The notes under the pieces were generated by a model. That model did not search any database and was not told the DNA's origin. It was given only the letters and a program-made list of their open reading frames with translations. A stretch of DNA of 64,000 nucleotides, taken from NCBI RefSeq assembly GCF_039503195.1, contig NZ_JBCJKP010000001.1:1488001-1552000 (forward strand), in the 5' to 3' direction. Source of the DNA: Streptomyces mirabilis. GTDB lineage: Bacteria > Actinomycetota > Actinomycetes > Streptomycetales > Streptomycetaceae. This document shows positions 24,650-49,453 of this stretch, piece after piece (positions within the stretch are counted from its first letter, which is position 1; each line of letters begins with the position of its first letter). Made by a program: the position numbers and the translations under genes.

Positions 24650-24681
24650 CTGATCAGGCCGCTGATCAGGTGGCTGATCAG
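24650..24681 (-). repeat. Three CTGATCAG repeats at 12-bp spacing over the galactanase stop
   Basis: The 8-bp palindrome CTGATCAG occurs at 24650, 24662 and 24674, exactly 12 bp apart. The GH53 stop codon TGA (24680-24678) is inside the third copy. Because the unit is 12 bp, each copy presents a TGA in the same frame, giving three in-frame stops in tandem. Confidence 0.85.
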
Positions 24682-26240
24682 CGGTGGCCGAACTGCGACA
24701 TGGCGGGCAGCGCCTTGTCGTCGAAGCCGAACAGCGCCTGGTTCTCCCAGCCGTTGCCGGACGTGGCGTCGGCCGGGTCCCAGCCGTTGCCGGTGACGGC
24801 GGTCCAGGTGGCCTCCCAGTAGAAGACACCGAGGCCGCGGCCGTTCGGGACGGCCTCCACGACGTTCATCACGTCCCGCAGCCACGCGGACTGCCCGGCG
24901 GTGGTGGCCGGGTAGCCGGAAACCAGCTCACCGGTCGTGTCGATCTGGTTGACGAGCGAGTCGTCGCTGTCGAGACGGAAGGGGTAGGCCGTCTCGGCCA
25001 GGAACACCGGCTTGCCGTAGCGCGCGGCCGCGTCGTCCAGGGTCGTCTGGAAGTCGGAGAGCGGGCCGTGCCAGTAGCCGTAGTAGGACAGGCCGATGGC
25101 GTCGAACTTCACGCCGCTTGAGACCGCGTTGTCGAACCACCAGCGGGTGCCGGACAGGTCGCCGCCCTTGGCGAGGTGCAGCGCGACGGTCGTCGACGAG
25201 CTGACGGCCTTGACGGCGTCGTAGCCGGAGTTGAGGAGCCCGGCAAGCTGCGACCAGTTGTCGGTGGAGCCCTCGGACCACAGCATCCCGCCGTTGATCT
25301 CGTTGCCGACCTGGACCATGTCGGCGGTGGTGCCCTGCGCCTTCAGCGCGTTGAGGACGTCGTACGTGTGGTTGTAGACGTCCGTCTTCAGCTGGCTGTA
25401 GGAGTGGCCCGCCCAGGCGGCCGGCTTGGTCTGGGCGCCGGGATCGGCCCAGGTGTCCGAGTAGTGGAAGTCGACCAGGAGCTTCATGCCCTGCGCCTTG
25501 ATGCGCTTGGCCATCGCCAGGACGCGCGTCTTGTTGTTGTAACCGTCGGCGGGGTTCACCCAGACCTTCAGGCGCGCGTAGTTCATACCTGCGGACTTCA
25601 GGATGGCGAGCGCGTCACCGGTGGTGCCGGAGCTGGTCCTGTAGACGCCGCCGAGGGCCTCGCTCTTGGCGAGGGAGGAGATGTCGGAGCCCTTGACGGA
25701 GAGCCCGGTGGCGCTGCCGGAGGTGAACGTCAGGTCGTCGACGTTGATCCAGTTGCCCGCGTTGGCATCGGAGTCGATGCTGATCGTGCACTGGTTGCCG
25801 GTCACCACGACGGGGACGACGAGGTGTATCCATCCGCTGCTGGAGACCGGCAGGTCGGTGCGCTGCTCGGTGCCGCCGCAGTTCTTCAGCGCGAGGTAGG
25901 CGGAGTTCTGGCCGCCGCCCGAGCGCACCCAGGCGGTGAGCCGGTAGTTCCCGTTGGTCAGTCCGGAGAGGTACTGGTACGTCTCCACCTTGTAGGCGGC
26001 GGAGGAGTACTGCGTGAGGCGGTAACCACCGCTGTGGCCCCCGGCCTCCACGTAGGAGGCGCCGGTGTCGCCGTACTCCGACCAGCCGGCGGGCGTGGCC
26101 GTGCCGGCGCCGTCGGCCTCGAATCCGGCGTTGGTGAGGGTGCTCGCCGCCTGTGCCGTCTGCGCGGGCAGGGCGGTGAGGGCCAGCCCGGCCGCGAGCG
26201 GCAGCAGCAGGGTCCTGAGTGTGCGTCTGGGATGGAACAT
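24678..26240 (-). CDS. Secreted GH53 arabinogalactan endo-beta-1,4-galactanase with N-terminal carbohydrate-binding module
   Basis: A 520-residue extracellular enzyme that cuts beta-1,4-galactan. The signal peptide (about 1-32, cut after AQTAQA) is twin-arginine-like only weakly. Residues 33-175 form a beta-sandwich module (TLTNAGFEADGAGTATPAGW, NWINVDDLTF), similar to CBM61-type galactan binding. Residues 180-520 are the GH53 barrel with acid/base Glu314 in QVGNEINGGMLW and nucleophile Glu416 in FLAETAYP; GSDISSLAKSEALGGVY is also diagnostic. It is adjacent to GH42 and a sugar importer, forming a galactan-degradation locus like the Bacillus gan operon. The stop codon lies in a tandem repeat. 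Confidence 0.93.
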   Translation of the reverse strand: MFHPRRTLRTLLLPLAAGLALTALPAQTAQAASTLTNAGFEADGAGTATPAGWSEYGDTGASYVEAGGHSGGYRLTQYSSAAYKVETYQYLSGLTNGNYRLTAWVRSGGGQNSAYLALKNCGGTEQRTDLPVSSSGWIHLVVPVVVTGNQCTISIDSDANAGNWINVDDLTFTSGSATGLSVKGSDISSLAKSEALGGVYRTSSGTTGDALAILKSAGMNYARLKVWVNPADGYNNKTRVLAMAKRIKAQGMKLLVDFHYSDTWADPGAQTKPAAWAGHSYSQLKTDVYNHTYDVLNALKAQGTTADMVQVGNEINGGMLWSEGSTDNWSQLAGLLNSGYDAVKAVSSSTTVALHLAKGGDLSGTRWWFDNAVSSGVKFDAIGLSYYGYWHGPLSDFQTTLDDAAARYGKPVFLAETAYPFRLDSDDSLVNQIDTTGELVSGYPATTAGQSAWLRDVMNVVEAVPNGRGLGVFYWEATWTAVTGNGWDPADATSGNGWENQALFGFDDKALPAMSQFGHR

Positions 26241-26404
26241 CTTCGTCCGTCGTCCCTTCGACGTGATGGGAATGGGGGTGCCCCCGGAGTGGCTCTGGGG
26301 GCGCCCCCTCCGCCCGCGGCTCTCGTGGCACTCACGGGCGGAGGGGAGTTCGGCTCGGCCGCGGGGCCCTGCGACCCGGCGGCGGTCGGGTGAGGCGTGA
26401 AGTC

Positions 26405-26478
26405 GTACGGCGAGGACGGCGGTCGGCTCAGCCGTCAGGCCGTACGGCCGGGACGGCGGTCGGCTCAGCCGTCGAGCC
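26405..26478. repeat. Two tandem copies of a 37-bp repeat over the GH42 stop codon
   Basis: Units 26405-26441 and 26442-26478 share GACGGCGGTCGGCTCAGCCG and flanking bases with few differences. The GH42 stop codon (26467-26465) is inside the second copy, so the duplication extends just beyond the coding sequence. It looks like a recent tandem duplication of the gene's end. Confidence 0.8.
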
Positions 26479-28486
26479 GTACGACCCGGACGGCCCCCGC
26501 GGGCAGCACGAGGCGGCCCGTGGCGCGTTCGCCCGTCAGCAGCTCGGTGCCGGCCGCGTCCAGCGGCACCTTGGCGTCCGACGAGGTGTGGTTGATCGCG
26601 AACAGGAAGGTGCCCGACTCACCGCTGCGGCGCACCACTTCGACATCGCGGGGCAGGTCGGCCGGCGGCGCGATCCGCGCGTCGTCGGACGCCCAGCCGA
26701 TGAGGGCGTCCAGGCCCTGCGCGCCGAGGCGGGTGGAGACGTACCAGGCGGAGCCCTCGCCGAGCCGGTGACGGGTGACGGCCGGGTGGCCCGCGGTGAG
26801 TCCGTCGGCGTACGTCCACACGGTCTCGGCGCCGCGCGGCACCACGAACTCGGTCCAGACGTCGCCGGTGAGCTCGGAGCCGTCGGGGCCGGTGATCCGG
26901 ACCCGGTCGTCCTTCAGGAGCGGCGAGAACTCCTCGACGGTCAGGCCGAGCACGTCCCTCAGCGCACCGGGGTAGGCACCCTGGTGCACGGCGTCGTGCT
27001 CGTCGACGATGCCGGAGAAGTACGAGACGACGAGGGTGCCGCCGTGTCCGACGTACTCCCTGAGGTTGTTCCCGGCGGCCTCGGTCATCAGGTAGAGGGC
27101 GGGGACGACGACAAGGGGATAGGCCGACAAATCGGCTTCCGGGTGGGCGAAGTCGACCGTGAGGTGACGGTCGTAGAGCGCCTCGTAGAACGCGTCGGCG
27201 CGCTCGCGCGGGTCGTGGTCCTCGCTGGGGCGCCAGTCGAGGCTCTGCGCCCACCACGAGTGCCAGTCCCACAGCACGGCGGCGTCGGCGACGGTGCGGC
27301 TGCCCTTGACCGAGGTCAGCGACTCGACGGACGCGCCGAGTTCGACGACCTCGCGCCAGACCCGGGAGTCGGTGCCGGCGTGCGGCAGCATCGCCGAGTG
27401 GAACTTCTCGGCGCCGCGCCGGGACTGCCGCCACTGGAAGAACATGGCGCCCTCGGAGCCGCGCGCCACGTGCGCGAGGGAGTTGCGGGCCATCTGGCCC
27501 GGGGACTTCGCCGGGTTGCGGGGCTGCCAGTTGACGCCGGACGTGGAGTGTTCGAGCAGCAGCCAGGGGGCGCCGCCCGCGACGGAGCGGGTGAGGTCGG
27601 CGGCCATCGCGAGGTTGACGTGGGTGCGGCGGCCGTCGGTGATCAGGTAGTGGTCGTTGGTGACGAGGTCGACCTCACGGCCCCAGGCCCAGTAGTCGAC
27701 GGAGTCGCACTGGCTGAGGGCGGTCATGAAGTTCGTGGTGACCGGGATGCCGGGGGCGAGGCGGTGCAGGATGTCCCGCTCGGCGACGAAGTTCTCGCGC
27801 ATGGTCTCGTCGGCGAAGCGCTTGTAGTCCAGGGCCTGGGCCGGGTTGCCGACCGTGGGGGTCACGCGCGGCGGGTTGATCTGCTCGAAGTCCGCGTAGC
27901 GCTGGCCCCAGAAGGCGGTGCCCCAGGCCTCGTTGACCGCGTCCACGGTCCCGTACGTGCGAGCCAGCCAGCGGCGGAAGTGGGCGGCGCAGGACGCGCA
28001 GTAGCAGGCCGAGACGGGCACTCCGTACTCGTTGTGGACGTGCCAGAGGGCGAGCGCGGGATGGTCGGCGTACCGGGTGGCGAGTGCGGTGGTGATGCTC
28101 GCCGCGGCGGCGCGGTAGTCGCTGTTGCTGTGGCAGATGGCGCCGCGCGAGCCGAACTCGTAGCGGGTGCCGTCGGCGGCCACCGGCAGCGCCTCGGGGT
28201 GCTCGCGGTAGAACCAGGCGGGCGGCGCGACGGTCGGGGTGCCGAGGTCGGCACGGATGCCGTTCTCGTGCAGCAGGTCGAGCAGTCGGTCCAGCCAGCC
28301 GAAGTCGTGCGTCCCCCGGGCGGGTTCGAGCAGCGCCCAGGAGAAGATCCCGACGCTCACCATCGTGACACCCGCCTCGCGCATCAGCCGGACGTCCTCG
28401 TGCCAGACGTTTTCCGGCCACTGCTCGGGGTTGTAGTCCCCACCGAAGGCGAGCCCGGTGAGGCCCTTGGGTGTGGTCTCCGGCAT
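26465..28486 (-). CDS. GH42 beta-galactosidase
   Basis: A 673-residue cytoplasmic enzyme releasing galactose from beta-galactosides and galacto-oligosaccharides. The barrel starts with FGGDYNPEQWPENVWHEDV; the acid/base is Glu153 in HVHNEYG, the nucleophile Glu312 in LLLEHSTSGVNW, and a zinc-type cysteine cluster ACYCASCAAHF follows the acid/base. The trimerisation domain (LYLMTEAAGNNLREYVGHGG) and a small beta domain close the protein. ATG 28486 follows GGGAGAAG. It is divergent from the ABC importer operon and likely degrades oligosaccharides delivered by it after GH53 cleavage outside. The 3' end is in a 37-bp duplication. Confidence 0.94.
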   Translation of the reverse strand: MPETTPKGLTGLAFGGDYNPEQWPENVWHEDVRLMREAGVTMVSVGIFSWALLEPARGTHDFGWLDRLLDLLHENGIRADLGTPTVAPPAWFYREHPEALPVAADGTRYEFGSRGAICHSNSDYRAAAASITTALATRYADHPALALWHVHNEYGVPVSACYCASCAAHFRRWLARTYGTVDAVNEAWGTAFWGQRYADFEQINPPRVTPTVGNPAQALDYKRFADETMRENFVAERDILHRLAPGIPVTTNFMTALSQCDSVDYWAWGREVDLVTNDHYLITDGRRTHVNLAMAADLTRSVAGGAPWLLLEHSTSGVNWQPRNPAKSPGQMARNSLAHVARGSEGAMFFQWRQSRRGAEKFHSAMLPHAGTDSRVWREVVELGASVESLTSVKGSRTVADAAVLWDWHSWWAQSLDWRPSEDHDPRERADAFYEALYDRHLTVDFAHPEADLSAYPLVVVPALYLMTEAAGNNLREYVGHGGTLVVSYFSGIVDEHDAVHQGAYPGALRDVLGLTVEEFSPLLKDDRVRITGPDGSELTGDVWTEFVVPRGAETVWTYADGLTAGHPAVTRHRLGEGSAWYVSTRLGAQGLDALIGWASDDARIAPPADLPRDVEVVRRSGESGTFLFAINHTSSDAKVPLDAAGTELLTGERATGRLVLPAGAVRVVRLDG

Positions 28487-28499
28487 GGATCTTCTCCCG

Positions 28500-28514
28500 T
28501 TTAATCGATCATTT
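28500..28514. promoter_or_regulatory. Possible LacI-type operator (TTTAATCGATCATTT)
   Basis: TTTAATCGATCATTT is a near-palindrome around ATCGAT, 14 bp upstream of the GH42 start, resembling AATCGATT-type LacI-family sites. It differs from the operator at 28603, so a second regulator may act here. Weak evidence. Confidence 0.25.
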
Positions 28515-28574
28515 GGGAACGTGCACACACTCGATCAGCGGCGCGAGGCCAACATAACCGCACAGCAACAACCA

Positions 28575-28616
28575 TTGACAAGTGTCCGGGATGTTTCTCT
28601 ACTGTGAACGCTCACA
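28575..28616 (+). promoter_or_regulatory. Promoter with overlapping LacI-family operator (TGTGAACGCTCACA)
   Basis: TTGACA (28575-28580), a 17-bp spacer and TCTACT (28598-28603) form a housekeeping-type promoter. TGTGAACGCTCACA (28603-28616), a LacI-family palindrome with TGTGA/TCACA arms, begins at the last -10 base and would cover the start site. Binding would block transcription of the importer operon. The regulator is probably the LacI protein encoded at its end. The operator also lies 117 bp upstream of the divergent GH42 gene. Confidence 0.7.
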
Positions 28617-28672
28617 GAAGCATGGCACGGTCGCCGCAGCAGGCGGAGACCCAGGTCAGGGGAGAAAGATCC

Positions 28673-29992
28673 ATGCCAAACACGAAGCTGCGTCGCCTCG
28701 TGGCCACCTCCATCGCCGTCACGCTCGGCGGCACCGCACTCGCCGCCTGCGGCACGTCGGACGACAAGAGCTCGTCCGAGTCGGGCCCCGTGTCCCTGAC
28801 GTACTGGTCCTGGGCTCCGGGCATGGACAAGGTGACCGACCTCTGGAACAAGGGGCCGGGCAAGCAGCAGAAGATCACGGTCACGGTGAAGAAGCAGGCG
28901 TCGGGCGACACGCTGGTCACCAAGATCCTCACCGCGCACAAGGCGAAGAAGGCCCCGGACCTGGTCCAGGCCGAGTACCAGGCGCTGCCGACCCTGGTCA
29001 GCAATGACGCGCTCGCCGACATAGCGGGCGAGTCGAAGGACGCGAAGAGCAAGTTCGCCGACGGTGTCTGGCAGCAGACGACCCTGGGCTCGGACGCCGT
29101 GTACGCGATCCCGCAGGACATCGGCCCGATGATGTTCTACTACCGCCAGGACCTCTTCAAGAAGTACGGCCTGACGGTTCCCACGACCTGGGAGCAGTTC
29201 GCCGAGACGGCCCGCGCGCTGAAGAAGAAGGCTCCGGACAAGGACCTGACGACCTTCTCCGCCAACGACTCCGGCCTCTTCGCGGGTCTCGCCCAGCAGG
29301 CGGGCGCCAAGTGGTGGACCGCCTCGGGCGACAAGTGGAAGGTCGGCATCGACGACGCGGCGACGAAGAAGGTCGCCGACTTCTGGGGCGGCCTCGTCAA
29401 GGAGGGCGCGATCGACAACCAGCCGATGTACACGCCCTCCTGGAACAAGGCGCTGAACACCGGCAAGCAGATCGCCTGGGTCAGCGCGGTGTGGGCGCCG
29501 GGCACCCTCACCACCGCGGCCCCCGACACCAAGGGCAAGTGGGCGATGGCCCCGCTGCCTCAGTGGGACGGCAGCACGGACGTCACCGGCAGCTGGGGCG
29601 GCTCCTCGACGGCCGTCACCACGGACTCGCAGCACAAGGCGGCCGCCGCGAAGTTCGCGACCTGGCTGAACACGGACCCGCAGGCGGTGGCCGCGCTGGC
29701 GAAGGAGGGCGGCATCTACCCGGCCGCCACCACCGCGCAGACCAGTGACGCCTTCTCCCAGCCGCCGGCGTTCTTCTCCAACCAGGCGGACTTCTACCCG
29801 AAGGCCGCGGAGATCGCCAAGACCACCGCGCCCTCCGCCTGGGGCCCGAACGTGAACGTCGCCTACACGACCTTCAATGACGCCTTCGGCGCCGCCGCCA
29901 AGGACAAGTCGGACTTCGGTACCGCCCTGAAGAAGATGCAGGACAACACGGTGGCCGACCTCAAGAAGCATGGCTTCGGGGTCGCTCAGTGA
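28673..29992 (+). CDS. Sugar ABC transporter substrate-binding lipoprotein
   Basis: A 439-residue family 1 extracellular solute-binding protein. The lipoprotein signal peptide has lipobox LAAC at about residue 26, followed by a Ser/Asp-rich linker. The mature part shows SLTYWSWAPGMDKVTDLWN, QDIGPMMFYYRQDLFKKYGL and TGSWGGSSTAVTT, as in maltose/multiple-sugar binders. ATG 28673 follows GGGGAGAAAG. It is first in a four-gene operon with two permeases and LacI. The gene context (GH53, GH42) suggests galacto-oligosaccharides as ligand. Confidence 0.93.
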   Translation: MPNTKLRRLVATSIAVTLGGTALAACGTSDDKSSSESGPVSLTYWSWAPGMDKVTDLWNKGPGKQQKITVTVKKQASGDTLVTKILTAHKAKKAPDLVQAEYQALPTLVSNDALADIAGESKDAKSKFADGVWQQTTLGSDAVYAIPQDIGPMMFYYRQDLFKKYGLTVPTTWEQFAETARALKKKAPDKDLTTFSANDSGLFAGLAQQAGAKWWTASGDKWKVGIDDAATKKVADFWGGLVKEGAIDNQPMYTPSWNKALNTGKQIAWVSAVWAPGTLTTAAPDTKGKWAMAPLPQWDGSTDVTGSWGGSSTAVTTDSQHKAAAAKFATWLNTDPQAVAALAKEGGIYPAATTAQTSDAFSQPPAFFSNQADFYPKAAEIAKTTAPSAWGPNVNVAYTTFNDAFGAAAKDKSDFGTALKKMQDNTVADLKKHGFGVAQ

Positions 29993-30912
29993 CGACGGCA
30001 CGTCGGAAGTCGTACGGGGTCAAGGGGGCCCCGTACGCTTTCCTCCTCCCCGCGACGATCCTCTTCGCCCTCTTCTTCGCGCTGCCCATCGGCTACGCGC
30101 TCTGGCTGAGCCTGCACAAGGTGCAGGTCAAGGGCCTGGGCCTGGGCTCGGGCGCCCGCAAGGAGGTCTGGGCGGGGCTGGCGAACTACAAGGACGCCCT
30201 CTCCGACTCCGAGCTGCTGAGCGGCGCGGTGCGCGTGCTGGGCTACGGCGCCATCGTGATCCCGGTGATGCTGGGCCTCGCACTGCTGTTCGCGCTGATG
30301 CTCGACACGGACAAGGTGCGCCTGGCCCCCTTCACCCGGCTCGCGATCTTCCTGCCGTACGCCATTCCCGGCGTCGTCGCCGCGCTGCTGTGGGGCTTCC
30401 TGTACCTCCCCGACGTCAGCCCCTTCTACTTCGTCCTCGACAAGCTGGGGATGCCGCAGCCGAACCTTCTGGACGGCGGCCCGCTGTATCTCGCCCTGTC
30501 CAACATCGCGGTCTGGGGCGGCACCGGCTTCAACATGATCGTCATCTACACCTCGCTGCAGGCCATCCCGGCCGAGGTGTACGAGGCGGCGAAGCTGGAC
30601 GGCGCCACGCCCCTGCAGATCGCGCTGAAGATCAAGATCCCGATGGTGGCGCCCTCGCTGGTGCTCACCTTCTTCTTCTCGATCATCGCGACGCTCCAGG
30701 TGTTCAGCGAGCCGACCACCCTCAAACCCCTCACCAACTCCGTCTCCACGACCTGGAGTCCGCTGATGAAGGTGTACCAGGACGCCTTCGGCAAGGGCGA
30801 CATCTACTCGGCCGCCGCGGAGGCGGCGATCATCGCCGTCGTCACCCTCGTCCTGTCCTTCGGCTTCCTGCGGGCCGCGAATTCCCGTAACAAGCAGGAG
30901 GCAGCACGATGA
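29989..30912 (+). CDS. Sugar ABC transporter permease (MalF type)
   Basis: A 307-residue inner-membrane permease with about six helices. The cytoplasmic EAA loop is YEAAKLDGATPLQIALKIKI, the docking site for the shared ATPase. GTG 29989 overlaps the stop of the binding-protein gene (GTGA), and the stop overlaps the next ATG (ATGA). No ATPase gene is in the operon; in Streptomyces such importers are energised by the multiple-sugar ATPase MsiK encoded elsewhere. Confidence 0.94.
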   Translation: MTTARRKSYGVKGAPYAFLLPATILFALFFALPIGYALWLSLHKVQVKGLGLGSGARKEVWAGLANYKDALSDSELLSGAVRVLGYGAIVIPVMLGLALLFALMLDTDKVRLAPFTRLAIFLPYAIPGVVAALLWGFLYLPDVSPFYFVLDKLGMPQPNLLDGGPLYLALSNIAVWGGTGFNMIVIYTSLQAIPAEVYEAAKLDGATPLQIALKIKIPMVAPSLVLTFFFSIIATLQVFSEPTTLKPLTNSVSTTWSPLMKVYQDAFGKGDIYSAAAEAAIIAVVTLVLSFGFLRAANSRNKQEAAR

Positions 30913-31814
30913 GTTCTCTTGCCGTACGCAAGGCCGCACCGGCCGCGGGTACCACCCCCGGCACCGCCCAGGGCCCGCCCCTGCGCCGCCGTATCGCCCT
31001 CGTGCCCACCCTGACGCTGCTGCTCGGCGCGCTCTACTGCCTGCTGCCCGTCGCGTGGGTGCTGATCGCGGCGACCAAGTCGGGCCGTGAGCTGTTCTCG
31101 ACCTTCACGTTCCTGCCGGGCTCCGGCTTCACGCAGAACGTCAAGGACCTCAACGCCTACCGCGACGGGATCTACTGGAAGTGGATGGGCAACTCCGCCC
31201 TCTACGCGGGCCTCGGCGCCCTCCTGTCGACGGCCGTCTCGGCGCTCAGCGGCTACGCCCTCGCGATCTACCGCTTCCGCGGCCGCGAAACCGTCTTCGG
31301 CGTCCTGATGGCGGGCGTGCTCATGCCGCCCGTGATCCTGGCGATCCCGCAGTACCTGCTGCTGGCGAAGGCGGACCTCACGGACTCGTACGCGTCCGTG
31401 CTGCTCCCCCTCATCCTCTCCCCGTACGGCGTCTACCTCGCCCGGATCTACTCCTCCGCGGCCGTGCCCGGTGACGTGGTCGAGGCCGGGCGGATGGACG
31501 GGGCGAGCGAGTGGCGGATCTTCACCCGGATCGCGCTGCCGATGATGGTGCCCGGACTGGTGACGGTGTTCCTCTTCCAGTTCGTCGCCGTGTGGAACAA
31601 CTTCCTGCTGCCGTACATCATGCTCAGCGACGACGAGAAGTTCCCGATCACGCTGGGTCTGTTCACGCTGCTCGAACAGGGCTCCAACACCCCGGCGCTG
31701 TACACGCTGGTGATCACCGGCGCGCTGCTCGCGATCGTTCCGCTCATCGCTCTCTTCCTGGTCATCCAGCGATTCTGGAGCCTCGATCTCCTCTCGGGAG
31801 CCGTAAAGTCGTGA
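30909..31814 (+). CDS. Sugar ABC transporter permease (MalG type)
   Basis: A 301-residue permease. An Ala/Pro-rich N-terminal tail precedes six helices; the EAA loop reads VVEAGRMDGASEWRIFTRIA. ATG overlaps the MalF-type stop, and the stop overlaps the LacI gene's GTG. It completes the heterodimeric channel for the locus. Confidence 0.94.
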   Translation: MSSLAVRKAAPAAGTTPGTAQGPPLRRRIALVPTLTLLLGALYCLLPVAWVLIAATKSGRELFSTFTFLPGSGFTQNVKDLNAYRDGIYWKWMGNSALYAGLGALLSTAVSALSGYALAIYRFRGRETVFGVLMAGVLMPPVILAIPQYLLLAKADLTDSYASVLLPLILSPYGVYLARIYSSAAVPGDVVEAGRMDGASEWRIFTRIALPMMVPGLVTVFLFQFVAVWNNFLLPYIMLSDDEKFPITLGLFTLLEQGSNTPALYTLVITGALLAIVPLIALFLVIQRFWSLDLLSGAVKS

Positions 31815-36506: not shown

Positions 36507-36554
36507 GAGGTCGAGAGACCGAGAGGTCAGGAGGTCAGGAGATCAGGAGATCAG
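36507..36554. repeat. Six tandem 8-bp units over the stop codon of the oxygenase gene
   Basis: Units GAGGTCGA, GAGACCGA, GAGGTCAG, GAGGTCAG, GAGATCAG and GAGATCAG occupy 36507-36554. The stop codon of the minus-strand gene (36545-36543) lies in the fifth unit. The period is not a multiple of three, so added or lost copies would move the stop by changing frame. Confidence 0.85.
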
Positions 36555-37784
36555 CGGGATGTCGTCCGAGGGCAGGCCGAGGCGGTCGCGGCCGACGCGG
36601 CGGGCCAGCGGTTCGGCCATCGTGGGGCCGAGGTGCGACCAGATCGTGGCGGCGTCCCGGAAGTAGCGCTGCATCCGTGCGCCGTCGCGGGCGTGCCGGG
36701 AGCCCGCCGTGCGGAAGAGGATGCCCTGGAGCGCGTCCCAGGCCAGGCGCCCGGCGGTGACGAAGACCAGCGCGAGCCGGTTGTCGACGGCGGTCGTGAA
36801 GAGAGCCCGGCCCGACACGTTGTCGCAGCAGGCCTCCATCCAGTCGTCGGCGGTCGCCCGCAGCGCCGCGTCCGCCGTACGGATCGCGGCCAGCGCCTCC
36901 CCCAGGTGGCGCTGGTAGTCGTGGAGGTCCGCGCGGGTGCGGCCGGGGTCCAGGACGAGCGGCCGTTCGGCGATGATCCGGGCGTACTCGTCGGCGGCCG
37001 CGTACGCGGTGCCGATCATGAGGGCGGCCAGCTCGCCGTGGAAGAAGCTCGCCGCGCGCCCCGCGTACATGGGATGGCCGTGCAGCTTCGAGCCGACGGA
37101 GCCGCCCTCGACGGGCAGGTCGAGCAGGCTCGCCTCCCGGGTGAAGTGCGCGGGGATGCGGGCCTCGTCGAGGCGGATGCTGTGGGAACCACTGCCGCGC
37201 AGGCCGAGGACGCCCTGCCAGTCGTCGAGCAGGGTCCAGGCGGAGCGCGGCGCGACGAACAGCACGAGCGGCCCCGGCGGGTCCTCCGGCTTCTCGGGGG
37301 CGCGCAGGGTCTGACCGACGTAGTGGGTGGAGTACGGGGAGCCGGAGGAATAGGACCAGGTGCCGTCGAGGACCACATGACCCTCGCCGTCGGGCCGCGC
37401 CACCCCGACGGGGGTCGCGGTGGAAGCGGCCCGGAAGTCGCCCTCGTCGCCGAAGAGTTCGTCCTGTGTCTTCTCCTCGAAGACCGAGGCGACCTGGAGG
37501 ACATGGGCGGCGGTGAGAGACAGGGCCCAGCCGGTGGAGGGGCAACCGCGCGCGACCTCGGTCACGACGCGGTAGAAGGTCGGCAGGCCGAAGGCGTAGC
37601 CGCCGTACCTGCGCGGCTGCAGCATCCGGTAGAAACCGGCGCGCAGGAACTCCTCGTGGGTGTCCTTGGGGTAGATCGTCAGCCGCTCGGTCTCCGGCTG
37701 ACGTTCGAGCAGCGCGGGCCGCATCGCCACGGCCCGCTCGATCACTTCGCGTTCGGTGAGTTCCGGTTCGGGAACGGCGATCAC
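36543..37784 (-). CDS. Acyl-CoA-dehydrogenase-fold flavin monooxygenase/dehydrogenase (HsaA-like)
   Basis: A 413-residue protein of the acyl-CoA dehydrogenase superfamily, closest in pattern to two-component flavin-dependent hydroxylases of the HsaA/naphthocyclinone type: YPKDTHEEFLRAGFYRMLQP, RRYGGYAFGLPTFYRVVTEV, GCPSTGWALSLTAAHVLQVA and SYSSGSPYSTHYVGQTLR. The acyl-CoA dehydrogenase catalytic Glu position is not evident, consistent with an oxygenase using reduced flavin from a partner reductase. GTG 37784 follows AGGAGG at four bases. No reductase gene is adjacent. Substrate unknown. Confidence 0.82.
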   Translation of the reverse strand: MIAVPEPELTEREVIERAVAMRPALLERQPETERLTIYPKDTHEEFLRAGFYRMLQPRRYGGYAFGLPTFYRVVTEVARGCPSTGWALSLTAAHVLQVASVFEEKTQDELFGDEGDFRAASTATPVGVARPDGEGHVVLDGTWSYSSGSPYSTHYVGQTLRAPEKPEDPPGPLVLFVAPRSAWTLLDDWQGVLGLRGSGSHSIRLDEARIPAHFTREASLLDLPVEGGSVGSKLHGHPMYAGRAASFFHGELAALMIGTAYAAADEYARIIAERPLVLDPGRTRADLHDYQRHLGEALAAIRTADAALRATADDWMEACCDNVSGRALFTTAVDNRLALVFVTAGRLAWDALQGILFRTAGSRHARDGARMQRYFRDAATIWSHLGPTMAEPLARRVGRDRLGLPSDDIPLIS

Positions 37785-38050
37785 GGGGCCTCCTGACAGG
37801 CGGGACTGTCCGTACGTGCGGCGACACCAGTGATTGAACACGCAGACCCGCCACGGTGTACCACCGGATAACGCCAAGTACGAGGATCTGTACAGCGGTT
37901 GAAGTGTCGGCCGGCCCGCCCGGGAGCGCGGGGGGAGCGCTTTTCCCACCCGTCGGCCAGGGCTTCGAGGCGATGGCCTTGGTGAAAACGAACCAGCGAT
38001 GGTGACCGGGGCCCACGCGCCTCGCAGGCCCCGCCGCCTACCGTGGGCGC

Positions 38051-41324: not shown

Positions 41325-41478
41325 GGACGTACCTTCCCGGTGTACTCGCCGTTCGCTCGGAGAGAGGGCGGAACGGCCCACCGGGATGCCTGGGGGCGGT
41401 GGCTGTTCAGGTGACGTTCAGGTCGAGGGAGGAACGCCGCGGCTCACACCGTGGGTCGCGGCCGGTGCGCTGCCGGAC

Positions 41479-41676
41479 TCAGCTCGTCTCCGCCGCGCGG
41501 CAGGAGCCGCAGGTGATGTGGCGGGCCGGCTTCTCGTGGGTGGCCCGGCCGGTTCCGGCGATGTCCTGGGTCGGCGGGTGGCTTTCGTGCACATGCGTGC
41601 GACAGAGCGCCGCGCCGCAGCGGATGCATACGGCGACCGCGGGACCGGGGGTACCGAGGCAGTCGTAACAGTTCAT
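41479..41676 (-). CDS. Small zinc-ribbon protein, DUF2180 family
   Basis: A 65-residue cysteine/histidine-rich protein: MNCYDCLGTPG, VCIRCGAALCRTHVHE and HITCGSCRAAE. Cys pairs (CxxC three times) and interspersed His residues suggest two zinc sites. GAGGTGAGGAC precedes the ATG. The gene is monocistronic between the glycosyltransferase and phosphatase genes. Function unknown. Confidence 0.85.
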   Translation of the reverse strand: MNCYDCLGTPGPAVAVCIRCGAALCRTHVHESHPPTQDIAGTGRATHEKPARHITCGSCRAAETS

Positions 41677-41848
41677 GTCCTCACCTCGTTCTTTGGTGAG
41701 CACGGCCCTGTTGGGGGCTCTGCGATCCATCCTCCATCATCCTCACGAACATCGCCTGGCAGAGAACGCGGCCACGAGCCGTGCGCTCGGGCGGGCCGGA
41801 ATCGGTCACCGTGTCGCATCGGACCAGGGGGCGGAGTAGACAGGGGAC

Positions 41849-43132: not shown

Positions 43133-43634
43133 GCCGTCCGGTCCCCAGTGCGCCCTTGGTCAGGTCGTGGGGGTCGAACCACGTGGGCGCGTCCGACAGG
43201 GCCTGCTTGATCCGGAACATCCCGAACTCGTTCAGCTCGGGCAACGCGTCGACCGCGAACCAGCCGACGTCCAGCGACTCGTCGTCGTTGACCCTCGCCT
43301 CGCCGCCGACAGCCCGGCAACGGAACGTGGTGTCCATGTACTGGCAGGTGTCGCCGTTCTCGTACGTGACCGGCTCCAGGGCCTGCACCAGCACCACGCG
43401 CTCGACGACGCAGCGCACGTTGGTCTCCTCGAACACCTCCCGCACGGCGCAGGCCGCGGGCTGCTCGCCCGGGTCCGGAATGCCGCCGATGATCGACCAC
43501 TTCCGGGTGTCGGTGCGCCGGCCCAGCAGCACTCTGCCCTCGTCGTCGAAGACGATGGCGGTGACTCCGGGGAGCCACAGCAGTTGGTGGCCGGCCGAGG
43601 CCCGGAGGGTGCGGATGAAGTCAGGAGTAGCCAT
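43119..43634 (-). CDS. Nudix hydrolase
   Basis: A 171-residue Nudix protein. The Nudix box runs from GGIPDPGEQPAACAVREVFE to EETNV and fits GX5EX7REUXEEXGU except that Asn replaces the last Gly. Surroundings GVTAIVFDDEGRVLLGRRTD and KWSIIGG match ADP-ribose/NTP pyrophosphatases. The 3' end overlaps the convergent phosphatase gene by 14 bp. Substrate not predictable. Confidence 0.92.
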   Translation of the reverse strand: MATPDFIRTLRASAGHQLLWLPGVTAIVFDDEGRVLLGRRTDTRKWSIIGGIPDPGEQPAACAVREVFEETNVRCVVERVVLVQALEPVTYENGDTCQYMDTTFRCRAVGGEARVNDDESLDVGWFAVDALPELNEFGMFRIKQALSDAPTWFDPHDLTKGALGTGRLTAG

Positions 43635-43674
43635 GGACCGACCCTAACGGCCGGATTCCGTCATCCGGCCGGGG

Positions 43675-45303
43675 TCAGGCGAGATCGCCCGGAACGGCGC
43701 CGTTCCGGCGCCCCCGGACCACCGTCGTACCCGCCCAGCCGAGACCGCCCACCGCGACCGCCACCAGCAGCATCTCCGGCAGGATGCCGAGCCGCGTGGC
43801 GGGGGTCTCGGAGGAGCGCAGCGGCACCTTCTGGACCAGCGAGTCCGCCACGAACATCCCGGTCCGCTGGGTGATCCTCCCGTCCGGCATGATCACGGCG
43901 CTGACGCCGCTGGTCACCGGCACCGTGACGGTACGGCTGTGCTCGACGGCGCGGACGCGGGACATGGCGAGCTGCTGATAGGTCATCTCGCTGCGGTCGA
44001 AGGTCGCGTTGTTGCTCGGCACCGAGATCAGCTGCGCGCCGTCGGTCACGGTGCTGCGCACGGCCCAGTCGAAGGCGGCCTCGTAGCAGGTGACCAGTCC
44101 GACCCTGGAGCCGTCCATGGTGAACACGCCCGCCTTGTGGCCCCGGCTGAAGTCCTGGCGGACCATCGAGGTCCAGTTCTTGTTGATCGCGCCGAGCAGC
44201 GAGCGCAGCGGAAGGTACTCGCCGAAGGGCTGGACCTGTCGCTTGTCGTACGTGTCGAGGGGGCCTTTGACCGGGTCCCACAGGATCTGCTCGTTGTAGA
44301 GCTTGCCGTCGCGCTCGACGACGCCACCGACCGAGATGGGCGCGCCGATGGCCTTGGCGGCGTCGTCGATCACGAGGCGGGCGTCGGCGTTGGTGAAGGG
44401 GTCGACGTCGGAGGAGTTCTCCGGCCACAGCACGAAGTCGGGCCGGGCGACCTTGCCCGCCTTGACCTCGGCGGCCAGCCGCTCGGTCTCCCGTGCGTGG
44501 TAGTCGAGCACGGCGCGCCGCTGGGCGTTGAAGTCGAGCCCCGCGCGCGGCACATTGCCCTGGATGACGGCGACGGTCGCCGTGCCGTTCTCGGCCTTGT
44601 CGCTCACCAGCGACCGCGCCGCGAGCGCCCCGACGACGGGGACGGCCACGCCGAGCAGCGCCGCCGCGGCGGCCCCTCGGCGTACGACGCCGGTGCGCCG
44701 GCCCTCGACGACCTGGCGCACGACCTCGTACAGCCCGAAGCCGCAGAGCACGACCGCGAAGCCGAGCACCGGGGTGCCGCCCACCGCGGCCAGGGGAAGG
44801 AAGATGCCGTCCGCCTGGCCGAAGGCGATCTTGCCCCAGGGGAAGCCGCCGAACGGCGCACGCGCGCGTGCCGCCTCGCCCGCGATCCAGACCGCCGCCG
44901 CCCAGAGCGGCCAGCCGGGCAGCCGGGAGACGAGGGTGATGCCCGCGCCGACGAGCGCCACGTACACCGCTTCCACGGCGACGAGGGCCAGCCACGGGCC
45001 GGGACCGACCTCGACACCGGTCCACACGAGCAGCGGCAGCAGGAAGCCGAGGCCGAACAGATAGCCGAGCCCGAGGCCCGCCCTCCAGGAGCGACCGCGC
45101 AGAAGCCAGCCGAAGACCGCGAAGGCCGGCAGGGCCAGCCAGGAGACGGTGCGCGGCGGGAAACTGACGTAGAGCAGTACTCCGGAGAGCGCCGCGGCGG
45201 CGGCCGGAGCGTATCGCCGAGCCAGTCTGGCCCCGCGGGATGCGGGCGCGGCCTGGGGTTCGAGCTGATCCGGCTCGTCTACGGAAGTTGCGGTGGCGGT
45301 CAC
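43675..45303 (-). CDS. lnt: Apolipoprotein N-acyltransferase
   Basis: A 542-residue membrane enzyme adding the third acyl chain to lipoproteins. Seven or eight N-terminal helices (VSFPPRTVSWLALPAFAVFG, FGGFPWGKIAFGQADG) precede the extracellular nitrilase domain. The Glu-Lys-Cys triad is visible in order: Glu in FVLWPENSSDVDP, Lys in YDKRQVQPFGEYLPLRS and Cys in VGLVTCYEAAFDW. GTG 45303 starts VTATATSVDEPDQ; there is no strong ribosome site but the length suits the family. Streptomyces usually carries two lnt genes; this is one of them. Confidence 0.93.
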   Translation of the reverse strand: MTATATSVDEPDQLEPQAAPASRGARLARRYAPAAAAALSGVLLYVSFPPRTVSWLALPAFAVFGWLLRGRSWRAGLGLGYLFGLGFLLPLLVWTGVEVGPGPWLALVAVEAVYVALVGAGITLVSRLPGWPLWAAAVWIAGEAARARAPFGGFPWGKIAFGQADGIFLPLAAVGGTPVLGFAVVLCGFGLYEVVRQVVEGRRTGVVRRGAAAAALLGVAVPVVGALAARSLVSDKAENGTATVAVIQGNVPRAGLDFNAQRRAVLDYHARETERLAAEVKAGKVARPDFVLWPENSSDVDPFTNADARLVIDDAAKAIGAPISVGGVVERDGKLYNEQILWDPVKGPLDTYDKRQVQPFGEYLPLRSLLGAINKNWTSMVRQDFSRGHKAGVFTMDGSRVGLVTCYEAAFDWAVRSTVTDGAQLISVPSNNATFDRSEMTYQQLAMSRVRAVEHSRTVTVPVTSGVSAVIMPDGRITQRTGMFVADSLVQKVPLRSSETPATRLGILPEMLLVAVAVGGLGWAGTTVVRGRRNGAVPGDLA

Positions 45304-45556
45304 TCGGGGAGTGTACGGCGCGTGAGCTGGGCTCCGACAGCACGGTCCGCACCATGAACCTCGCGGCGCCGGGGGGTGGTCCGTCCGCTCCGCAGACCCT
45401 CGCATGGCCGCCTGATGCACCGTTCCTGCGCAACTCATCCACAAACCGGCGCATCAGCCGTTACGGTGTGCCCGAGCCTCTGACGTGCGGCCGGATGCGG
45501 GCGTGTCGGTCGGGGTCCGGCACAGGTCGGGGGGCGACGGGGTGGGATCCACGGGG

Positions 45557-46630
45557 ATGAGGTCCGCGGCCGGTTCGGCGGCCGAAGGCGAGAGACGAAA
45601 CGTTTCGGACGCCATGGGTGTGATCGTGCTCGGGGCCTGCGCGGTGTGGGCCCTGATCACGGCGACCGCGCACGACGGGCGGCCCGAGGGCGTGCTCCTG
45701 GCCGTGCTCGCCGTGGCCGCCGGGTACGCCTCGGGCCGGATCCTCGGGGCTCTCCTGCCGGTCGCGGCGCCGGGTGCCGGGGCCCTCGCCGGACTGGGCC
45801 TCGCACTCACCGCCGCGCACACCACCCCGGGCCCGCAGCTCACGACGCCCCTCGGGCACGGCGGCGCCACGGCCGCGCTGCTGGCCCTGTCCACCGGTGC
45901 GGCGTGCTGCGCGGCCTGGGCGGCACGCAGCCCTGCGCAGCGGCTCGCGCTGAGTCTGCTCGCCGTCGGAATCGTGGTGAGCGCGGCGGTGCTCGGCTCG
46001 ACCACGGGATCCGCCGCCGGCGCCGGAGTGCTGCTGTGCTCGCTCGCCGCCGACCGCATGCGCCGGCGCGCCCTCGGACTCGGGGGTCTCGCGCTCGCCG
46101 CGGCGCTGGTGACGGGCGCGACCTGGGCGGTCGCGGAGAACGTGCTGCCCGACGGTCTGACCGCGTCCCTGGAGGGGCCGCTCACCGAGCACCGGGTCCT
46201 GCTCTGGCGCGACGCGCTCCACCTGGCGGGACACCATCCCGCCCTGGGTGTGGGGCCCGGGCGGTACGGGGAACTCGGTCCGACGGTCACACAGTCGCTG
46301 CTGCCCGACGGCAAGCCCCACTCGGCACCGTGGCAGCAGGCGGCCGAGCAGGGTCTGGTCGGCGTCGCCCTGCTCGCCGCGGTCTTCTGCTGGGTCCTCT
46401 ATTCGCTGTGGCGTTCGCCGCGGGCCACGACGATCGCGCTGACGGCGGGCGCGGCCCTCACGGCGCTGGCCGTGATCGCCTCGCTGGGCAACGCGCTGAG
46501 CTTCACCACGGTGACGGCGGGTGCGGGGCTGCTCGCGGGGCTCGCGACGGCACGTCCCCTGGCCGACGAGGACCTGGAGCGCGTCCTGAACGCGGGAGAC
46601 CAGACCCCGAGGAACCAGTTGGAGCCGTGA
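45557..46630 (+). CDS. O-antigen-ligase-like membrane protein
   Basis: A 357-residue protein with about nine hydrophobic segments. The diagnostic part is ASLEGPLTEHRVLLWRDALH and LAGHHPALGVGPGRYGELGP, followed by KPHSAPWQQAAEQGLVGVAL. This R-xx-W-xx-A...HPxxGxGPGxF/Y pattern plus an extracytoplasmic loop is that of Wzy_C/WaaL ligases. The protein is shorter than typical family members. ATG 45557 is a compromise; ATG 45485 and ATG 45614 are in frame and none has a convincing ribosome site. Possible role in cell-surface glycan attachment or export. Confidence 0.7.
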   Translation: MRSAAGSAAEGERRNVSDAMGVIVLGACAVWALITATAHDGRPEGVLLAVLAVAAGYASGRILGALLPVAAPGAGALAGLGLALTAAHTTPGPQLTTPLGHGGATAALLALSTGAACCAAWAARSPAQRLALSLLAVGIVVSAAVLGSTTGSAAGAGVLLCSLAADRMRRRALGLGGLALAAALVTGATWAVAENVLPDGLTASLEGPLTEHRVLLWRDALHLAGHHPALGVGPGRYGELGPTVTQSLLPDGKPHSAPWQQAAEQGLVGVALLAAVFCWVLYSLWRSPRATTIALTAGAALTALAVIASLGNALSFTTVTAGAGLLAGLATARPLADEDLERVLNAGDQTPRNQLEP

Positions 46631-46642
46631 ACTGCGCGACGG

Positions 46643-47188
46643 TCAGATGACCGCGCCGGGCGTGGCCGGCCGCAGCCGGTCCCGGATGATCCGGACCATC
46701 GCCTCCGCGTTGTCCACCGTGATGGTGAACGTGTGTCCGTCACCGAGCCGGAGCACCACACCCTCGCCGCGCCGGACGATGACCGCGGTGCCCTTGTCGG
46801 GACGCCAGCGGTAGCCCCAGCCGCCCCACTGCCGCGGGGTGACCCGGGGGGCGAAGTCGGCGCCGACGACGCTCGAGAGCGGAATACGCCGGCGGGGCAG
46901 ACCGATGTGGCCGCACCGCACTTCGAGGCAGTCCTTGTCGACCTTCACGGCGACATGCACGAAGGCGAGCGTGCCGAACATGATGAGCAGTCCCGCCGCG
47001 ATGCAGCCGACGACGGACATGGCCAGTGCCGCGACACCCGACGTCCACGTCGAGTCGACGGCCAGTTCGACACCCAGCGCGATGCAGGCGGCCCCGCCTA
47101 TGGCGGGCAGCCACTGGACGCGATTGGTCGCACGCCCGGTCCAGACATCGGGGTGCGAGAAGTTTTCGCGGTGGAGGTGGTCCCTCAT
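46643..47188 (-). CDS. PH-domain membrane protein
   Basis: A 181-residue protein with two N-terminal hydrophobic helices (LPAIGGAACIALGVELAVD, VVGCIAAGLLIMFGTLAFVH) followed by a bacterial PH-like domain: DKDCLEVRCGHIGLPRRRIP, GWGYRWRPDKGTAVIVRRGE, RLGDGHTFTITVDNAEAMV. This is the common DUF3093/PH-like architecture of actinobacteria. ATG 47188 starts MRDHLHRENFSHPDVW; the frame is open for 24 further upstream codons. It converges with the O-antigen-ligase-like gene, 12 bp away. Function unknown. Confidence 0.75.
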   Translation of the reverse strand: MRDHLHRENFSHPDVWTGRATNRVQWLPAIGGAACIALGVELAVDSTWTSGVAALAMSVVGCIAAGLLIMFGTLAFVHVAVKVDKDCLEVRCGHIGLPRRRIPLSSVVGADFAPRVTPRQWGGWGYRWRPDKGTAVIVRRGEGVVLRLGDGHTFTITVDNAEAMVRIIRDRLRPATPGAVI

Positions 47189-47326
47189 GTTTAAAAGACT
47201 ACTCAGGTTCCGCACCGCGGGCACCGGGTCGCGGAGGGCCACTGCTCCGGGTGGGCGCACCGCGCACGCGGGGCGTTCGAGCCGTGACGGACGGTCGTCG
47301 GGCGGAGCCTCCGCCCGGAGGCAGAG

Positions 47327-48112
47327 TCAGCGGGCGGGGCTGACCGCCTGGAGATGGCGGCCTTCCTCGTACGCCAGCGCGGTCGCCGACAGGCCGCCCT
47401 CGCTGCCGCTGAGGAGCACGGTGAGGGAGCCCTCGGCGGGGGCCTCCGGGTCCGGGAGCTCGCCGATCCTGCGCAGTGCCTGCGCGGCGACCGCCCCGGC
47501 GGAGCCATGCAGCACGAGCGGCGCGAGGCCGGGCTGCCGCACGGCCGTGCGGATGCGTTCGGCGACCAGCTCGTAATGGGTGCAGCCCAGGACGACGGCC
47601 CTCACATCGCCGGGGGTGCGCTCGGCCGCCGCGGCGATCGCGGCGTCGATGCCCTCCTGGTCACCGTGCTCCACGGCGTCGGCGAGCCCGGGGCAGGCCA
47701 CTTCGGTCACGGACACTCCCTCGGCGAACGCGCCGATGAGCCCGCGCTGATAGGGGCTGCCGGTGGTGGCGGGCGTGGCCCAGATCGCGACGGGTCCCCC
47801 ACCGGCCGCGGCCGGCTTGATCGCCGGGACGGTGCCGATGACGGGCACCTCCGGCTCCAGGCGGGCCCGCAGCGCCGGAAGGGCGCGGACGGAGGCGGTG
47901 TTGCAGGCGACGATCAGGGCGTCGGGACGGTGTCGCGCGGCGGCCTCGGCGACGGCTAGCGCGCGGGCGGTCACGTCCTCGGGCGTACGTGGTCCCCAGG
48001 GCATGCTGCCGGGGTCCGAGGAGAGCACGAGATCGGCGTCCGGCCGCAGTCGACGTACCGCGGCGGCGGCAGCGAGCAGTCCGATTCCGGAGTCCATGAG
48101 CGCGATCTTCAC
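47327..48112 (-). CDS. Aspartate/glutamate racemase-family protein
   Basis: A 261-residue PLP-independent racemase fold. Both catalytic cysteines are present, in IVACNTASVRALPAL and VVLGCTHYELVAERI, with IALMDSGIGLLAAAAAVRRL at the N terminus in place of the murI FDSGxGG. The conserved SGSEGGL occurs near the C terminus. GTG 48112 is the start. It may be glutamate racemase-like but is more divergent than MurI (Streptomyces has a separate essential murI), so substrate is left open. Divergent from the glycosyltransferase gene 58 bp away. Confidence 0.82.
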   Translation of the reverse strand: MKIALMDSGIGLLAAAAAVRRLRPDADLVLSSDPGSMPWGPRTPEDVTARALAVAEAAARHRPDALIVACNTASVRALPALRARLEPEVPVIGTVPAIKPAAAGGGPVAIWATPATTGSPYQRGLIGAFAEGVSVTEVACPGLADAVEHGDQEGIDAAIAAAAERTPGDVRAVVLGCTHYELVAERIRTAVRQPGLAPLVLHGSAGAVAAQALRRIGELPDPEAPAEGSLTVLLSGSEGGLSATALAYEEGRHLQAVSPAR

Positions 48113-48170
48113 CCGGTCACCATAGACGATCCGCCCCGGCGGACCCCCGGGGTGGGGCAGACTGCGGCGG

Positions 48171-49346
48171 GTGAGTGCCGTCGCGTGGACCGCCGTGGGA
48201 TCACTGGCCGCCTGGCTGTGGCTGCTGCTCGGCCAGGGCTTCTTCTGGCGTACGGATCTGCGGCTGCCGCCGCGTCGGGAACCGGACGACTGGCCGTCCG
48301 TCTGCGTCGTCGTACCGGCGCGCGACGAGGCCGCCGTACTGCCCGAGAGCCTGCCCTCGCTGCTCGCCCAGGACTATCCGGGGCGCGCCGAGATCTTCCT
48401 CGTCGACGACGGCAGCTCGGACGGCACCGGGGAGCTGGCCCGTGCGCTCGCCCGCACGCACGGCGGGCTGCCGCTCACCGTCGACTCGCCCGGGGAGCCG
48501 CCCGCGGGCTGGACCGGCAAGCTCTGGGCCGTGCGTCACGGTATCGGCCTGGCACGCGCGCGTGGCCCCGAGTACCTGCTGCTGACGGACGCGGACATCG
48601 CGCACGCGCCGGACAGCCTGCGGACGCTGGTCGCCGCGGCGCGCGCCGGCGGCTTCGACCTGGTCTCGCAGATGGCCCGGCTGCGGGTGGAGAGCGTGTG
48701 GGAGCGGCTCGTCGTCCCCGCCTTCGTCTACTTCTTCGCACAGCTCTATCCCTTCCGGTGGATCGCGGTGAAGGACTCACGGACGGCGGCCGCGGCGGGC
48801 GGCTGCGTACTGCTGCGCGCGGACGCCGCCGAGCGGGCGCGGATTCCGGACGCCATCCGGCACGCCGTCATCGACGACGTGGCGCTCGCGAGGGCGGTCA
48901 AGGGGAGCGGGGGCCACATCTGGCTGGGGCTGGCCGAGCGGGTCGACAGCGTGCGTCCCTATCCCCGGCTGCACGACCTGTGGCGCATGGTCTCGCGCAG
49001 CGCGTACGCCCAGCTGCGGCACAACCCGCTGCTGCTCCTCGGTACGGTCCTCGGCCTCGCCGTGGTGTACCTGGTGCCCCCGGTCGCCGTCTTCACGGGT
49101 CTCTTCTCCGGGCATACGGGGGTCGCGGCGGCCGGCGGGCTCGCGTGGCTGCTGATGACGGCGACGTATCTGCCGATGCTGCGCTACTACCGGCAGCCCG
49201 TGTGGCTCGCCGCGTCGCTGCCCGTGACCGCGTTCCTGTACCTCCTCATGACGGTCGATTCCGCGGTGCAGCACTACAGGGGGCGCGGCGCGGCCTGGAA
49301 GGGCCGCACCTACGCGCGCCCGGACACGGCGCTCGACGAGCGCTGA
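48171..49346 (+). CDS. Family 2 glycosyltransferase, HpnB-like
   Basis: A 391-residue protein with an N-terminal membrane helix, a GT-A domain (WPSVCVVVPARDEAAVLPES, IFLVDDGSSDGTGELARALA, LLTDADIAHAPDSL with the DxD) and three to four C-terminal helices. The order and the insertion GWTGKLWAVRHGIGLA match HpnB, the hopanoid-associated glycosyltransferase. No hopanoid genes (shc, hpnC/D) are in the window, so a general lipid glycosyltransferase is equally possible. GTG 48171 gives the family N terminus. Confidence 0.85.
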   Translation: MSAVAWTAVGSLAAWLWLLLGQGFFWRTDLRLPPRREPDDWPSVCVVVPARDEAAVLPESLPSLLAQDYPGRAEIFLVDDGSSDGTGELARALARTHGGLPLTVDSPGEPPAGWTGKLWAVRHGIGLARARGPEYLLLTDADIAHAPDSLRTLVAAARAGGFDLVSQMARLRVESVWERLVVPAFVYFFAQLYPFRWIAVKDSRTAAAAGGCVLLRADAAERARIPDAIRHAVIDDVALARAVKGSGGHIWLGLAERVDSVRPYPRLHDLWRMVSRSAYAQLRHNPLLLLGTVLGLAVVYLVPPVAVFTGLFSGHTGVAAAGGLAWLLMTATYLPMLRYYRQPVWLAASLPVTAFLYLLMTVDSAVQHYRGRGAAWKGRTYARPDTALDER

Positions 49347-49362
49347 CCGGTCACTGCCCGCG

Positions 49363-49453
49363 AGTCATTTCCTGCGGGTCACTTCCTGGGTCACTTCCGT
49401 GGGTCACTTCCGTGGGTCACTTCCGTGGGCCACTTCCGTGGGTCACTTCCTGC
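49363..49453. repeat. About seven tandem copies of a 13-bp unit (GGTCACTTCCGTG)
   Basis: Near-identical 13-bp units run from about 49377 to 49453 (GGTCACTTCCGTG three times, GGCCACTTCCGTG, GGTCACTTCCTGC, plus a 12-bp and a degenerate first copy from 49363). They fill most of the gap between two convergent genes. The TerD stop codon (49445-49443) is inside the last copy. Confidence 0.9.

Follow-up and report, generated by a model that had tools for sequence, protein, structure and literature searches.

Short tandem repeats over stop codons in Streptomyces mirabilis: probable minisatellites at a tolerated site

Why should several unrelated genes end inside short tandem repeats whose units have nothing in common? 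The question is raised by a 64,000 nt stretch of the Streptomyces mirabilis genome (assembly GCF_039503195.1, contig NZ_JBCJKP010000001.1, positions 1,488,001 to 1,552,000), referred to here as the window, in which the genes for a GH53 family protein, a GH42 beta-galactosidase, an HsaA-like protein and a TerD-domain protein all have their stop codons within tandem arrays, and a fifth array adjoins the stop codon of a cytochrome P450 gene. The first-pass annotation of this DNA read the pattern as a sign of a mechanism shared by stop codons. We consider it most likely, with a probability of roughly 0.75, that the arrays are ordinary locus-private minisatellites, formed by short tandem duplication or slippage and kept where selection permits, and that no special mechanism operates at stops. 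The main evidence lies in where arrays cross the edges of genes, in the frame of their periods and in the state of the same gene ends in related species.

Five arrays in the window

All five arrays were confirmed with Tandem Repeats Finder (TRF) and in the raw sequence. They are listed here with their genes, whose families were assigned with Pfam; ORF denotes the open reading frame used, and starts marked 'from caller' are those of a home-made gene caller.

24645..24681, minus strand: GH53 array, 12 bp x 3.1, unit TGATCAGCCACC in sense
24678..26240, minus strand: GH53 family gene, stop at 24678-24680 (PF07745, E-value 2e-132)
26380..26494, minus strand: GH42 array, 37 bp x 3.1, GH42 stop in copy 1
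26465..28486, minus strand: GH42 beta-galactosidase gene, stop at 26465-26467 (PF02449, PF08532, PF08533; start from caller)
36523..36554, minus strand: HsaA-like array, 8 bp x 4.0, unit TGATCTCC in sense, decaying downstream
36543..37784, minus strand: HsaA-like gene with acyl-CoA dehydrogenase fold, stop at 36543-36545 (PF08028, PF02771 on ORF 36543-37949; start from caller)
49364..49450, minus strand: TerD array, 13 bp x 6.7, unit GGAAGTGACCCAC in sense, TerD stop in copy 1
49443..50798, minus strand: TerD-domain gene, stop at 49443-49445 (PF02342, E-value 5e-52, on ORF 49443-50870; start from caller)
8163..8243, minus strand: P450 array, 25 bp x 3.2, beginning at the last base of the P450 stop
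8243..9502, minus strand: cytochrome P450 gene, stop at 8243-8245 (PF00067 on ORF 8243-10309; start from caller)

Four stops thus lie where the first-pass annotation had seen them, in arrays with units of 12, 37, 8 and 13 bp, and the five units of the window appear unrelated to one another by eye. The fifth array is present as well, although it touches only the last base of the P450 stop and lies outside the range 24650..49453 to which the pattern had been assigned. Two copy numbers need amendment: the two copies reported for the GH42 array are the clean ones, TRF giving 3.1 with a degenerate third, and the six reported for the HsaA-like array must take in degenerate copies beyond the 4.0 found by TRF. 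The stop falls in the first copy of the GH53, GH42 and TerD arrays. The GH53 array starts one base ahead of its stop, and the 3′ end reads in sense ...CGC TGA TCAGCCACC TGATCAGCGGCC TGATCAG; the TerD gene ends ...AGG AAG TGA and is followed by repeats of GGAAGTGACCCAC; the 37 bp GH42 unit contains GACGGCTGAGCCGACC. In the HsaA-like gene the coding tail is itself copy 1 (cTGATCTCC, out of frame) and the stop opens copy 2, the sense strand reading CTG ATC TCC TGA TCTCC TGACCTCC. Pfam supports an acyl-CoA-dehydrogenase-like fold for this protein, the name HsaA being that of the earlier annotation. A 24-base stretch of the TerD array, the only unit searched genome-wide, has its sole exact match in the genome at its own array. 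The genome is assembled in two contigs, and the one that contains the window is 10.97 Mb long.

Stops and starts across genomes

The frequency of such arrays was estimated from 80 samples, each of 20 kb, taken from the same genome every 105 kb to ~6.4 Mb and every 210 kb from there to no further than 10.45 Mb, with none from the second contig. TRF was run with the settings used for the window, and arrays with a score of at least 50 and a period of at least 5 were kept; genes came from the home-made caller script, whose starts are less certain than its stops. Three other sets were treated alongside: genome G007, genome G014 (from another family), and 80 GH42 loci, the best 80 of 574, of which 79 are titled Streptomyces and one Actinobacteria bacterium and which, being orthologous to one another, are not independent.

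Arrays cover 46 of 1351 stops (43 arrays when counted as such) and 15 of 1341 starts in the own-genome sample (Fisher p 7e-5), a comparison that the first-pass annotation had proposed and that comes out in its favour. The same excess is seen in G007 (10/353 stops vs 4/351 starts), G014 (8/312 vs 2/313) and the GH42 loci (23/1520 vs 5/1576), with a pooled p of 2e-5. Arrays are far above chance on both sides of genes: the 807 3′ flanks hold 79, against 1.3 on average after dinucleotide shuffling, and the 954 5′ flanks hold 48, against 1.7, so that chance or base composition is excluded as their source. They consist of head-to-tail copies of ~6-100 bp beyond chance, as minisatellites do, and per flank they are about twice as common on the 3′ as on the 5′ side (p 1e-4). 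With 5 of 55 stops in arrays (binomial p 0.039 against 46/1351) the window is slightly enriched for a pattern that occurs throughout the genome. Arrays lie at 13/566 stops in the chromosome arm and at 33/785 in the core (p 0.07), and the strand bias that had been suggested as a check is not significant (23/717 plus-strand and 23/634 minus-strand stops); that all five window arrays lie on the minus strand is probably a coincidence. A small control from Escherichia coli K-12 (4 x 50 kb) has arrays at 0/162 stops and 0/164 starts, which suggests that such arrays are rarer there.

The position of arrays relative to gene edges was examined by re-placing each gap-centred array at random within the same gap, gene-centred arrays not being counted. 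Over the four sets together 3′ edges are crossed 69 times, with 66.1 expected (own genome 40 vs 30.2, G007 5 vs 4.0, G014 6 vs 7.6, GH42 loci 18 vs 24.3), and 5′ edges only 6 times, with 35.2 expected (2 vs 15.3, 1 vs 1.7, 1 vs 3.9 and 2 vs 14.3 respectively). To an array a stop is in effect transparent and a start almost opaque, and the asymmetry between them exists because arrays avoid starts. There is no pooled excess over random gap placement that would make the arrays a site-specific feature of stop codons. Nor is the stop itself a hotspot: array coverage in the own genome is 1.0 % within genes and 3.2 % at the stop, and reaches its maximum of 5.9 % only 21-50 bp further downstream. The earlier proposal of a special mechanism at stops is not supported on this point, while its recognition of a recurrence with unrelated units, and of duplication or slippage as the likely source, holds up.

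The frame of the repeats is also looser at stops. In the own genome the period is divisible by three in 204 of 220 arrays within genes and in 21 of 43 stop arrays (Fisher p 9e-11); the corresponding figures are 58/67 and 2/8 in G014, 135/162 and 7/22 in the GH42 loci and, more weakly, 56/65 and 5/8 in G007. Upstream of the stop most arrays extend by less than one unit: this is so in 44 of the 51 stop-array pairs from the own genome, those of the window being counted in, 7 of 8 in G014, 18 of 23 among the GH42 loci and, again more weakly, 6 of 10 in G007. Such a short reach is nearly automatic for in-frame units, yet 25 of the 29 own pairs with periods not divisible by three also show it.

These counts are what would be expected if tandem duplication or slippage produced short arrays and purifying selection acted as a filter. 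Duplication of a unit that spans the stop would leave the protein unchanged, because translation still terminates at the first stop; the coding tail would become copy 1, later copies would accumulate as 3′ untranslated DNA, and a unit of any length would be allowed because frame no longer matters. A duplication within a gene would have to be a multiple of three, and one across a start would add a second start or disturb the ribosome-binding site. Stops would be transparent and starts nearly opaque because stop-spanning copies are harmless and start-spanning ones are not.

Two further repeats in the window may be recorded here. The TerD gene carries, past the TerD domain, an in-frame GC-rich repeat of 45/15 bp (50210-50309), an instance of the divisible-by-three rule inside genes. 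An imperfect 36 bp repeat cluster occupies 62247-62676, in a stretch without a called gene.

The same stops in related species

Alignments with relatives show that the TerD and HsaA-like arrays were added behind protein ends that did not change. All seven TerD loci listed, from six relatives' genomes (L168 and L182 contain one and the same gene; L164, whose alignment is incomplete at the end, was left out), end at the same lysine, and none has an array over the stop. The convergent gap between the TerD gene and a plus-strand gene ending at 49346 is mostly occupied by the TerD array; this gap (49347-49442) is 96 bp and by eye appears much shorter in relatives, where the end of the neighbouring gene is close to the TerD stop. 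In 12 of the 13 loci compared for the HsaA-like protein the last codon is in the same place, the exception (L230) ending three codons earlier, an in-frame difference; the tails of L108 and L229 are identical. Eleven of those 12 loci have no array scoring at least 50 over the stop. The twelfth, in Streptomyces bicolor (L131), has 8.6 copies of the near-identical unit TGATCCCC where the window strain has TGATCTCC, and each 8 bp unit matches its own coding tail (LIP* in S. bicolor, LIS* in the window strain). A weak array of 2.7 copies (score 39) in L093 likewise matches its own tail, and the other 11 loci have none. The coding tail has TGATC eight bases upstream of the stop, which may have provided a natural seed for slippage. 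Since the relatives end at the same residue or codon, the TerD and HsaA arrays are additions to an existing gene end. The P450 array is absent from all eight relatives examined.

Different arrays lie at or beside the GH53 and GH42 stops in other species, as judged from the aligned loci. Among 73 GH53 loci (one of them, L117, aligned short of the end), three have arrays of other units over the stop at a TRF score of at least 45 (L103, 9 bp x 4.8; L121, 11 bp x 2.1; L147, 21 bp x 2.0), and arrays lie just past it in L118 (8 bp x 5.8), L162 (40 bp x 2.6) and L148 (18 bp x 2.5). One of 64 GH42 loci (L083-L146) has an array over the stop (L135, 17 bp x 3.4). Array presence and copy number differ among the loci compared, the comparison being at the level of species. 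In 51 loci the mean majority-base share over the 40 sites past the GH42 stop is 0.59 (variable), against 0.79 before the GH53 start (conserved).

Several observations weigh against tolerated duplication as a complete account. The own-genome sample taken alone has more stop crossings than expected, as given above, and only 2 of its 15 starts in arrays are crossings by gap-centred arrays, so that most of these starts must be due to gene-centred arrays or to mis-called starts. Periods divisible by three exceed one third among own stop arrays (21/43) and also among own between-gene arrays (77/133), the latter perhaps because some gaps contain missed genes. The similarity of the 8 bp arrays at the HsaA stop in the window strain and S. 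bicolor hints that this stop sequence is predisposed to repeats, and an unchanged end cannot be shown for the P450, because the C-termini of the eight relatives all differ. There is, in addition, a modest peak in arrays per kb at 25-49 bp past stops, relative to >100 bp, in the own genome (1.76 vs 0.40; 32 arrays in the peak), G007 (0.89 vs 0.29; 4 arrays), G014 (1.97 vs 1.08; 8 arrays) and the GH42 loci (1.38 vs 0.75; 23 arrays). Tolerance alone does not demand this peak, which could reflect either the least constrained part of the Streptomyces gap, from stop to terminator, or a mild mutational bias.

Other explanations and known systems

A rival reading makes the 3′ ends of genes mutational hotspots, where polymerase pausing at terminator hairpins, replication-transcription conflicts or R-loops would cause more slippage and arrays would arise more often. 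The recurrence of the peak in four data sets is in keeping with this, as are arrays in several species at or beside the same GH53 stop and, in gaps between tandem genes, an array coverage of 7.8 % at 20-49 bp from the 3′ end and 1.95 % at 20-49 bp from the 5′ end. Within genes, however, coverage hardly rises towards the stop (1.02 % at -300..-101, 1.32 % at -100..-51, 1.14 % at -50..-21 and 1.44 % at -20..-11), stop crossings are near the uniform expectation, and coverage in G014 is highest at least 200 bp from 3′ ends (17.0 % vs 9.0 % near them). Replication direction, assigned from the placement of dnaA, has no significant effect (29/720 co-oriented vs 17/631 head-on stops, p 0.23). A hotspot driven by hairpins is not supported, array flanks being neither richer in hairpins (strong hairpins in 27/115 vs 195/707 other flanks) nor more structured (the median fold z is -0.37 in the 42 array genes and -0.45 in 150 genes sampled from 786 others, p 0.43). 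Taking both sides together, we regard a hotspot as unlikely but not negligible.

The arrays might instead act as spacers of adjustable length, contingency loci that set how far the terminating ribosome stays from the terminator hairpin, thereby tuning read-through. According to the part consulted of a study in E. coli (PMC4824070), repression is almost complete for a terminator placed several bp past a gene, and efficiency grows with distance; the arrays can shift the stop-terminator distance within the range that matters there. The spacers of that study were designed ones, whereas the present elements are repeats. At GH53, distances were taken from the 72 loci aligned to residue 515 or beyond: the hairpin starts at a median of 13 nt past the stop in 61 array-free loci (5-95 % range, 6-47) and at 41 nt in the window, where it is strong and terminator-like and lies 3′ of the array, 45 nt in L103, 50 nt in L118 and 49 nt in L147. 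Across the genome as a whole, the median start of the strongest hairpin is at 50 nt in array flanks and at 24 nt in others. Longer spacers are nevertheless expected here, because any insertion lengthens them; moreover, the hairpin is at only 12 nt in L121 and 21 nt in L148 although both carry arrays, and the array of L162 is not accompanied by a hairpin. A strong hairpin occurs in only the 27 of 115 array flanks mentioned above, with the array ahead of it in only 10, and nothing indicates an effect or selection. Such a role seems to us quite improbable, and a broader version, in which Streptomyces 3′ ends carry fast-turnover, locus-private spacers of this kind whose copy number tunes antisense or downstream transcription, a little more so. 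We note that the GH53 array is predicted to fold on itself ahead of the terminator-like hairpin, copies 1 and 2 pairing over CTGATCAG in a 10 bp stem (24660-24683) whose 5′ arm would contain the stop codon. Folding of the GH42, TerD and HsaA arrays is hardly, if at all, better than that of shuffled sequence (z -1.76, -0.60 and -0.37).

The copies could also have been retained as carriers of back-up stop codons, a notion close to the 'stop-tuning' of the first-pass annotation. One period past the stop, 22 of 46 cases in the own genome have another stop triplet, and 31 % of the 42 array genes, against 13 % of the 786 others, have a second in-frame stop within 30 nt; a repeat that contains a stop, however, yields extra stops unaided. 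In 29 of 51 own pairs the period is not divisible by three, which puts the following copy out of frame. The next in-frame stop is not significantly nearer (median distance 97.5 vs 126, p 0.09), and a published survey, in the part available, reports that additional stops are not under selection in eubacteria (PMC6764699). The arrays resemble the additional or tandem stop codons described elsewhere (PMC6764699; PMC1088959, both seen in part) in placing extra stop triplets past the gene's own, and differ in that here the extra triplets arise incidentally, when a unit with a stop in it is repeated, and are often out of frame. We hold retention for this purpose to be very improbable. Least credible of all is an artefact of assembly: assemblers can miscount short arrays, but the copies differ from one another, the genome is in two contigs, and arrays of a similar kind are present in other species, whose assemblies are independent.

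Tolerated duplication has parallels elsewhere. The tandem repeats of Borgs, giant archaeal extrachromosomal elements, are described as recent and independently formed, with unit lengths all divisible by three in ORFs and 14-38 % so between genes, and about half of the arrays are intergenic or begin with a unit that lies wholly or partly inside the end of a gene (PMC9879509, in the sections drawn on here). The placement of the first unit in a gene end and the rule of three inside genes are shared with the present arrays, and the first-pass statement that no feature of this kind had been described was too strong. Borg repeats are perfect and A-enriched according to the same sections, whereas the copies here are imperfect and lie in a GC-rich Streptomyces chromosome. 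Closer to home, the mycobacterial locus ETR-F, one of the mycobacterial interspersed repetitive units (MIRUs) or variable-number tandem repeats (VNTRs) and located between rnc and fpg1, is an actinobacterial intergenic array that starts 40 bp past a stop and widens a gap which, in species that do not belong to the complex, measures only a few bp (PMC2734929, likewise consulted in part). MIRUs are a dispersed family at 41 places (PMC2734929), whereas the TerD unit, the one tested here, is private to its locus. Because the Borg and mycobacterial VNTR layouts resemble that of the present arrays, we class the arrays as ordinary minisatellites in a tolerated niche and not as a new feature. Among the literature matches listed, whose coverage leaves out most subscription journals, there is no study of tandem repeats at Streptomyces stops.

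Should the peak at 25-49 bp prove mutational in origin, the ends of transcripts would be indicated as a hotspot of duplication. The arrays at stops are candidate markers for strain typing, and they illustrate a route by which coding tails can give rise to longer 3′ untranslated regions and wider convergent gaps. For bacterial minisatellites the counts provide a simple rule of location, in which stops are transparent, starts are nearly opaque and the interiors of genes admit mostly steps of three.

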